DNA of 64,000 nucleotides, from contig NZ_JACGWS010000001.1 in NCBI RefSeq assembly GCF_014397005.1, forward strand, positions 434,001 to 498,000, read 5' to 3'. A program made the position numbers and the translations under genes. Below the pieces are notes generated by a model that saw only the letters and a list, made by a program, of their open reading frames with translations, was not told the DNA's origin and did not search any database. Source of the stretch: Kordia aestuariivivens. Lineage in GTDB: Bacteria > Bacteroidota > Bacteroidia > Flavobacteriales > Flavobacteriaceae. Below are positions 40,537 to 41,292 of the stretch, piece after piece (the stretch's first letter is position 1; each line of letters opens with the position of its first letter).

Positions 40537-40580
40537 TAATTAATTATAATTAGCTAGAATACTCTTAAATTCTTAAAATA

Positions 40581-40607
40581 AAAGCAGCTCACTAGAGCTG
40601 CTTTTTT
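40581..40607 (+). terminator. Rho-independent terminator of the Omp28 gene
   Basis: A 10-bp stem AAAGCAGCTC/GAGCTGCTTT with loop ACTA, followed by TTTT. Confidence 0.9.
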
Positions 40608-40630: not shown

Positions 40631-40654
40631 GTGTGTTGTTATGGTTTAACCGTA
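40631..40654 (+). promoter_or_regulatory. Conserved dyad element upstream of precursor gene 1
   Basis: GTGTGTT, then 2 bp, then TATGGT-TTA-ACCGTA. The dyad (40640-40654) begins 9 bp after the GTGTGTT block starts and ends 59 bp before the start codon. The same layout recurs at 40954-40977 with 20 of 24 bases identical. Confidence 0.6.
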
Positions 40655-40676
40655 CTTTAAATTTAAAAATGTTTTA

Positions 40677-40684
40677 TAGTTTTG
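40677..40684 (+). promoter_or_regulatory. Candidate -7 box of precursor gene 1
   Basis: TAGTTTTG fits TAnnTTTG and lies 29 bp before the ATG and 22 bp after the dyad. No clear -33 TTG is present, which could mean an activator-dependent promoter using the dyad. Confidence 0.35.
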
Positions 40685-40712
40685 ATAGTATAACAACAAA
40701 ACTTATAAAATC

Positions 40713-40886
40713 ATGAAGAAACAAAAAATCAACAATTTGCAACTTAACAAAAAAAGCATTTCAAATTTCACTTCAACGCAAGTAAAAGGGAAAGGTTATG
40801 ATCCTGTGTACCTTACGAATCTTCCTACTATGATCTTTTATTTTAATGATAAAGGCGAATGTTTGTGCTTGTCTGTTGATTGCTAA
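40713..40886 (+). CDS. Lanthipeptide-type precursor peptide (LxLNKK leader), variant KGK
   Basis: A 57-residue peptide. The leader MKKQKINNLQLNKKSISNF matches the Bacteroidota leader LxLNKKxIxxL of class I lanthipeptide-like (GG-leader) precursors. The expected processing site reads KGKG here instead of GG. The core of about 30 residues (YDPVYLTNLP... ending ECLCLSVDC) has three Cys and a few Ser/Thr. No LanB, LanC, radical SAM or peptidase-transporter gene lies nearby, so it is an orphan precursor; the modification type is inferred from the leader only. Confidence 0.72.
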   Translation: MKKQKINNLQLNKKSISNFTSTQVKGKGYDPVYLTNLPTMIFYFNDKGECLCLSVDC

Positions 40887-40953
40887 AATATTGAAGTAAG
40901 TATAAATAAAATTATTTATAGAACTATTGTTTTATGTAAATTACAGATAGTGA

Positions 40954-40977
40954 GTGTGTTATTACGGTGAAACCGTA
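40954..40977 (+). promoter_or_regulatory. Conserved dyad element upstream of precursor gene 2
   Basis: GTGTGTT, 2 bp, then TACGGT-GAA-ACCGTA, a perfect dyad at 40963-40977. It ends 60 bp before the ATG, against 59 bp for the first copy. Shared sequence and shared spacing argue for a common regulator or promoter architecture. Confidence 0.6.
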
Positions 40978-41036
40978 TCGGGAAATGTATTTGAATGATT
41001 ATATTTAATTTTATTAATATTCAAAATCACATAACC

Positions 41037-41198
41037 ATGAAAAAAAAGTCGTTAAAAAAAATCAGTTTAAACAAAAATGTAGTTTCAAATCTTAAAGTTG
41101 GAAGTGTAAAAGGCGGAATGCCATCTCAGCAATGTAGCGAGATTTATTATGAAGATGAAGATGGAATGATCATTTGTTGCACTTTTGTAGGTTGCTAA
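41037..41198 (+). CDS. Lanthipeptide-type precursor peptide with GG leader
   Basis: A 53-residue peptide starting at ATG 41037 (an upstream in-frame ATG at 40995 has no leader character). Leader MKKKSLKKISLNKNVVSNL, processing site KGG, then a 26-residue core (MPSQQCSEIYYEDEDGMIIC..., four Cys in total, ending CCTFVGC). Few Ser/Thr remain in the core, so lanthionine rings would be limited and another modification is possible. It follows precursor gene 1 by 150 bp with its own copy of the upstream dyad and a strong terminator. Confidence 0.75.
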   Translation: MKKKSLKKISLNKNVVSNLKVGSVKGGMPSQQCSEIYYEDEDGMIICCTFVGC

Positions 41199-41237
41199 TC
41201 AAATTGAATCACCAATAATAACAATAATTGAAGAATG

Positions 41238-41272
41238 AAAAAGCCAGTGTATCCCATGTACACTGGCTTTTT
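41238..41272. terminator. Bidirectional rho-independent terminator
   Basis: A 14-bp perfect stem AAAAAGCCAGTGTA/TACACTGGCTTTTT (41238-41251, 41259-41272), between precursor gene 2 and the convergent pruA. Confidence 0.93.
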
Positions 41273-41292
41273 AAATATGATAACTTTATAGT

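Follow-up and report, generated by a model that had tools for sequence, protein, structure and literature searches.

What do two orphan leader peptide genes of Kordia aestuariivivens share ahead of their start codons, and which regulator might act there? RiPP precursors are usually detected through neighbouring enzyme genes, and orphans therefore lack context. The two genes lie in the window, the whole 64,000-nucleotide stretch analysed here (C1:434001-498000 within a 5.46-Mb genome). Gene 1 (40713..40886, plus strand) encodes 57 amino acids with a KGKG processing region, and gene 2 (41037..41198, plus strand) encodes 53 amino acids with a KGG site and the ending CCTFVGC. The second ORF was listed as 67 amino acids from an ATG at 40995 (40995-41198); we preferred the in-frame ATG at 41037 because the leader begins there. 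A preliminary description of the window had reported a paired dyad upstream of both precursor frames and had proposed that a single regulator or promoter controls a dispersed set of precursors. Frames and dyads were present as described: the 24-bp elements (40631-40654 and 40954-40977) agree in 20 of their 24 bases, leaving 58 bp between the first element and its ATG (40713) and 59 bp between the second and its ATG (41037). With up to three mismatches, the 24-bp pattern matched twice in the 64-kb window, compared to a mean of 0.01 in shuffled sequences, none of 100 shuffles reaching two. The genes are probably paralogues that form a neighbouring pair within a regulon.

A scan of the genome with this 24-mer, as the preliminary description had advised, returned two exact matches (the window's own) and three with three mismatches. 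The GTGTGTT stretch that had been counted as part of the element did not prove general; the usual flank elsewhere is a weaker consensus, aTGTTAAt, and GTGTGTT appears to be a local form of it. Absent from the preliminary description was the other half of the element: a box, TAnnTTT, located exactly 22 bp after each dyad. Dyad 1 (TATGGT-TTA-ACCGTA, 40640..40654, plus strand) is followed by the box TAGTTTTG (40677..40684, plus strand), and dyad 2 (TACGGT-GAA-ACCGTA, 40963..40977, plus strand), symmetric at 12 of 12 bases, by TATATTTA (41000..41007, plus strand). Transcription start mapping in Flavobacterium psychrophilum placed the sigma-A box TAnnTTTG at -12 to -5 (accessible part of PMC9723704); TAGTTTTG matches this consensus in full and TATATTTA differs at the last base. 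Because the sigma-A box sits at that position, the dyad centre would lie near -42, where an activator would be expected, and transcription would begin about 24 nt ahead of the window ATGs, near 40689 for promoter 1 and near 41012 for promoter 2. We read the dyad as the upstream half of a promoter, TANGG-N5-CCGTA, separated by exactly 22 bp from a sigma-A box TAnnTTT. Inverted repeats with a T run, recognized by eye, occur at 40580..40607, after the upstream Omp28-like gene, and at 41237..41275, between the peptide 2 gene and a convergent gene for a 541-aa aldehyde-dehydrogenase-like protein. Both are terminator-like, and the first may set the Omp28-like gene apart from promoter 1.

The box was conserved at a fixed offset in an alignment of 55 sites. 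The selection of these sites had used dyad score and the presence of a leader or exported-protein ORF downstream, independently of the box. Its T and A were each present at 53 of the 55 sites, and the following T positions were conserved at 51 and 54; the distance from dyad to ATG varied, whereas that from dyad to box was constant. The regex behind this set overlooked one true leader, at C14:55684. Model R1 was built from 51 of the 55 sites, with both window sites omitted deliberately and C46:198947 and C46:227449 left out as poor or shifted. When a flank-based model was run over the genome (150 of 7644 candidates scored), the window sites came out weak, with E values of 0.08 and 0.46, despite their exact core and spacing.

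The composite TANGGN5CCGTA-N22-TANNTTT, which includes both window sites, occurred at 36 exact sites in the genome and 198 in all 11 Kordia genomes (15 of them in G001), with no match to the reversed-pattern control in either case. These counts ruled out chance or local duplication alone. Immediately 3' of the 36 sites are 20 leader genes of the LxLNKKxIS type, both window genes among them, and 11 of a second leader family, MLKxIxxLxGxxxLxKxxQxxINGG, for which three peptides tested gave no confident NCBIfam match. The remaining genes encode three proteins of about 510 aa of the S74/T9SS surface type (the one tested had S74 and T9SS sorting domains) and one apparently exported protein of 375 aa, and one is a decayed leader gene, as judged from sequence. 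Of the 31 leader genes, 29 begin 51-59 bp past the dyad and the others at 71 and 93 bp. The preliminary description would have been undermined had the element occurred mainly away from precursors; instead, 31 of 36 sites precede leader peptides and one more precedes the decayed leader gene. Together, composite counts and gene placement strongly support its proposal of one regulator or promoter for a dispersed precursor set.

The gene assignment at the 36 sites is an unbiased count, whereas the set allowing one mismatch is biased, its stretches having been fetched partly for leader matches. In that set, 67 places were found: 54 before leader genes, four before S74-type proteins, two before other exported proteins, and seven without an ORF start within 40-105 bp. 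Six other Kordia species were sampled at 20 loci, where every one of the 23 exact sites was followed after 52-60 bp by a leader gene (21) or an S74-type gene (2). The sample largely followed the order in which about 106 sites of G001-G006 had been listed or counted, and it skipped a run of closely spaced G004 sites that we took for an S74 group. At the threshold used, 119 leader genes examined had no element, and they shared no common motif beyond an AACCAAA-type sequence and AT-rich words. Three S74/T9SS-type surface genes in tandem, every one carrying a promoter element of its own, were observed on the same contig as the window (L224 4774-9906, G000:C1); a three-gene tandem with promoter elements is also present in G003 (L240), and site spacing suggests a similar arrangement in G004-G006.

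We compared the window locus across the 11 Kordia genomes, using the 541-aa aldehyde-dehydrogenase-like neighbour gene as an anchor. Peptide 2 orthologues with the site were found in four other species (G002, G003, G005, and G009), with CCTF kept near the end; the syntenic dyad 2 was exact in G002, G005, and G009 and had one mismatch in G003. Syntenic peptides in G004 and G006 look like relatives of peptide 1 in which KGQ stands in place of KGK, and both arms of their site have changed together, symmetrically (TAAGGTAAAACCTTA). Neither site nor peptide relative was found at the locus in four species, one of them at a contig end. For peptide 2 compared to its G002 orthologue, dN was 0.16 and dS 1.34, and across the five peptide 2 genes pairwise Nei-Gojobori values were 0.08-0.34 for dN and 0.61-1.51 for dS. 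These values support peptide 2 being a translated gene under purifying selection, which bears on the concern in the preliminary description that the frames might not be translated.

Outside Kordia, the element pointed to a particular type of regulator. Among 249 genomes of the family, many exact sites occurred only in the two Kordia genomes (36 and 21). Another 41 genomes had one to five exact sites each, 60 in total versus 24 control matches in the set, which shows that many of these single matches are due to chance. Genomes that were also searched for the regulator held 43 of the 60 sites, and 14 of the 43 had a listed regulator match no more than 3 kb away. We examined 20 non-Kordia stretches around exact sites, selected on dyad symmetry while their gene content was still unknown; 12 encode one type of response regulator, DDHPMIIEGYQNTL-like, and eight do not. 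The site lies within 350 bp past the 3' end of the regulator gene in 11 of those 12, and 11 of the 12 also have a large ORF upstream of the regulator (the one tested encoded a TPR histidine kinase). At L259 14358-17025 (G125), the element stands next to a more distant member of this regulator type and precedes a lipoprotein-like gene; three tandem genes for small secreted Cys-containing proteins lie farther downstream.

The reverse search started from regulators. For 30 regulator loci, which were the best-scoring matches and not a random draw, the composite with at most one mismatch was found in the 500 bp downstream of 15, always with a gap of 22; 11 more had two mismatches at the same gap, four were worse, and the box was present in 21 of the 30. 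We then considered 72 non-Kordia orthologues, a set that overlaps in part with the genomes of the 30, using a wider composite (TRNGGN5CCRYA, TANNTTTG, at most one mismatch). It was present within 350 bp downstream of 58 orthologues and in none of the 72 reversed-sequence controls. All 58 composites had a gap of 22 where 18-26 was allowed, with spacing ties assigned to 22 in both reverse searches. The 14 orthologues without a downstream composite included all nine records titled Aquimarina.

A single clear orthologue of this regulator is encoded in each of the 11 Kordia genomes (E 1.5e-75 or better, compared to 1.8e-18 for the next best match). In K. aestuariivivens it is located at G000:C42:304849-305514 and shares 96-99% identity with the orthologues in eight records titled Kordia. 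In K. algicida, the regulator gene adjoins a kinase gene whose product has TPR, HisKA_3, and HATPase_c domains. The receiver domain (PF00072) scored above its cut-off, and Asp62, which we take to be the phosphoacceptor, is invariant in 22 aligned regulators. An EKRK sequence in the putative recognition helix is invariant both in those 22 and in an alignment of 11. Pfam matched the receiver domain only, with no GerE match, and NCBIfam models including MctR and NarL matched below their cut-offs. An AlphaFold model (pLDDT 86.6, pTM 0.66) had its best full-length Foldseek matches to spr1814, RcsB, and LiaR, with NarL lower. We treat the candidate as a NarL/RcsB-type response regulator with a putative C-terminal helix-turn-helix; it is most likely the activator that acts at the dyad. 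Inside Kordia, a link between this regulator and the operator is likely, on the grounds of orthology, with 55-56% protein identity, and of an identical motif.

Other readings of the dyad were weighed against control by this regulator. The least credible is that it forms an RNA hairpin in the 5' leader and is no DNA site. Some sites do pair perfectly as a stem of 6 bp around a loop of three bases, but the dyad is situated 5' of the -7 box, folding of 51 sites gave a consensus of two pairs with none covarying, and left-arm changes (TAA, TAG) opposite an unchanged CCGTA are uncompensated; we rejected this reading on the absence of covariation and the uncompensated arm changes. It is also very improbable that the dyad is the -35 region of a promoter for an alternative (ECF-type) sigma factor. 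Its fixed distance to the -7 region and its location where a -35 box would be are consistent with that idea, but the downstream box corresponds to the sigma-A consensus TAnnTTTG given in the accessible part of PMC9723704, and the upstream part is an inverted repeat with arms that differ symmetrically in G004 and G006. GntR and LytTR readings of the dyad were set aside once the regulator linkage had emerged. A weightier alternative, though still an unlikely one, accepts the promoter regulon as real and has it bound in Kordia by a NarL-type paralogue or another transcription factor. Kordia holds further related regulators (E 1.8e-18 to 8e-9), and the exact dyad was not found near the Kordia orthologue within 3 kb on each side in eight named records or within 1.5 kb in the K. 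aestuariivivens genome. Against this, many genera show a linkage of this orthologue group to the same core and 22-bp spacing, and the orthologue is nearly identical across Kordia. We favour the explanation that a NarL-type two-component system activates scattered Kordia peptide promoters through the dyad, and give it, taken as a whole, a probability of about 0.76.

That explanation is compatible with more than one type of product. The preliminary description had called the precursors lanthipeptide-like, with differing processing sites and few Ser/Thr in the cores. The latter two points held: where a Gly-Gly type processing site would be expected, peptide 2 has KGG, peptide 1 KGKG, and the apparent relatives of peptide 1 KGQ, and the cores have three Ser/Thr and three to four Cys each. 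With this composition, the products may be of the lanthionine or of the disulfide type. The leaders do have the LxLNKKxIS layout of the class I lanthipeptide leader family NF038153 (lant_leader_L1a), but both score below its cut-off of 22 bits (21.6 for peptide 1 and 13.2 for peptide 2), as do relatives in G002 and G004 (12.1 and 16.5 bits), and the window genes are orphans. We consider it a real prospect, at somewhat less than even odds, that the peptides are unmodified, disulfide-bonded products of the double-glycine type and not lanthipeptides. The core composition and low leader scores point this way, as do the peptide 2 orthologues, which keep CCTF, one conserved Ser, and one conserved Thr. 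On the other side, 20 element-bearing relatives average 6.6 Ser/Thr and 4.7 Cys per core, and a LanB-LanC locus exists on another contig. A scan with NF038153 returned at least 147 matches in the genome at E values up to 10, 139 of them starting at ATG; this count of leader genes should be taken as a minimum, since the scan, which scored 150 of 235 candidates, failed to recover peptide 1 and 21 of the 41 leaders of this type that bear the element.

The suggestion that maturation enzymes are encoded elsewhere is compatible with these data and goes no further: no modification enzyme was the next gene at any of the 36 exact sites, and LanB and LanC were not found beside the window precursors on C1. 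The sole LanB (PF04738) match in the genome is at C16:8242-10203; it follows a LanC gene and is itself followed by a 302-aa gene reminiscent of a split LanB partner. LanC (PF05147) matches occurred on C16, C17, C34, and C44, one of the three outside C16 lying within a LanM-like protein. This class II LanM-like enzyme (DUF4135 and LANC_like; L212 9361-12501, G000:C34) adjoins a 63-aa precursor-like gene. Near the LanC-like gene on C44 (L211 11085-12350), a 414-aa protein with many near-repeats of GPTGTQGC and TGYEGCH and no Pfam match (L211 7504-8748, about 59.5-60.7 kb on G000:C44) is possibly a very large multi-core lanthipeptide-like precursor. Past the LanC-LanB locus on C16, tandem genes for 588- and 630-aa proteins, presumably TPR proteins with AraC-type C-termini, precede leader peptide genes (L210 11620-15656); these proteins are perhaps local regulators.

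In many Flavobacteriaceae, a conserved stretch of about 100 nt directly after the NarL-type regulator gene looks like an sRNA. Nine sites aligned past the box share, with variation, TCAACA, ATTAATTAATCCCTC, and AATAGC, and their terminator helix has compensatory changes in 5 of 11 pairs. A TTAATTAATCCC-like box was present at 45 of the 72 non-Kordia orthologue loci. The apparent sRNA was observed downstream of the response regulator gene at L250, L251, L252, L255-L258, L262, and L268. At eight loci, no Rfam family reached its gathering score over the apparent sRNA, one tRNA elsewhere reached its own, and of three sub-threshold matches, mir-374 (24.2 versus 54 bits) overlaps the L255 sRNA. In Kordia, model R2 for the sRNA gave weak matches (best E 0.013), the TTAATTAATCCC box was absent from the four match regions examined (L291, L296, L298, and L301), and no such sRNA turned up next to the regulator gene. 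A minus-strand site at G000:C8:27424 (L225) has a perfect dyad, a -7 box with one mismatch, and a terminator-like hairpin within about 100 nt but no ORF, and is a possible short RNA gene in Kordia.

We propose that the dyad would act as the DNA operator of a dimeric activator bound near -42, replacing the usual upstream box of a sigma-A promoter. The activator would most likely be the NarL/RcsB-type regulator encoded on C42, partnered by a TPR-containing histidine kinase that would phosphorylate it in response to a signal. Once phosphorylated, the regulator is predicted to bind TANGG-N5-CCGTA at about 60 scattered promoters (predicted target TACGGTGAAACCGTA) and so to give rise to short transcripts for secreted leader peptides and to those for a small number of T9SS surface proteins. 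The putative operator of many other Flavobacteriaceae lies directly downstream of its own regulator gene and before the apparent sRNA, whereas Kordia is apparently without a regulator-adjacent operator and has it dispersed over peptide genes. The regulator may have kept its operator preference while its targets shifted from one sRNA to many peptide genes. Orthology makes it likely that an ancestral control of an sRNA was rewired in Kordia to peptide genes, with the direction of change as our inference. With confidence only moderately above even, we suggest that operator spread turned a single-sRNA system into a Kordia master switch for about 60 unlinked genes.

Parts of this arrangement resemble known systems. 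The prochlorosins of Prochlorococcus likewise combine many dispersed precursors with few modification enzymes; they are class II, made with ProcM, whereas the one dehydratase of K. aestuariivivens was matched by the model of the class I LanB family, and its precursors are joined by a shared operator. Lantibiotic operons under NisR/NisK-type control also pair a kinase and regulator with peptide genes, but in one local cluster and with an OmpR-type regulator, where Kordia would have a NarL-type regulator acting at about 60 scattered promoters, including those of surface proteins. RcsB, among the best structure matches of the candidate, is a NarL-fold regulator with an sRNA target, RprA; the apparent flavobacterial sRNA differs in directly adjoining its regulator gene, with no Rfam match above gathering score at eight loci. 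Rfp18 of F. psychrophilum is likewise a conserved flavobacterial sRNA (accessible part of PMC9723704). We found no link between the candidate and a two-component system of Riemerella in the accessible part of PMC5399024. No description of the promoter or of the kinase-regulator-sRNA module was found in titles and abstract openings, mostly of open-access papers, on orphan Bacteroidetes precursors, flavobacterial class I lanthipeptides and sRNAs, TPR kinases, and double-glycine leaders, or in the accessible parts of PMC9723704, PMC5399024, and PMC10352776. The accessible parts of Kordia papers on lanthipeptides and RiPPs, PMC10734526 among them, dealt with gene clusters only.

A 2023 survey described knowledge of Kordia secondary metabolites as scarce, if not non-existent (accessible part of PMC10734526). 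The shared promoter supplies the context that orphan precursors lack, in that it tells which of them group together. The set defined in this way gains a second leader family, surface proteins, and a candidate regulator that can be named. Since a named regulator can be deleted or induced, Kordia peptides become directly testable, and the conserved kinase-regulator-sRNA arrangement offers a second handle in several culturable genera. If the proposed mechanism is correct, the targets in Kordia would be two leader peptide families and T9SS surface proteins, with fast-evolving members behind a fixed promoter, and the kinase-regulator-sRNA module would be a new conserved regulatory unit of the Flavobacteriaceae.
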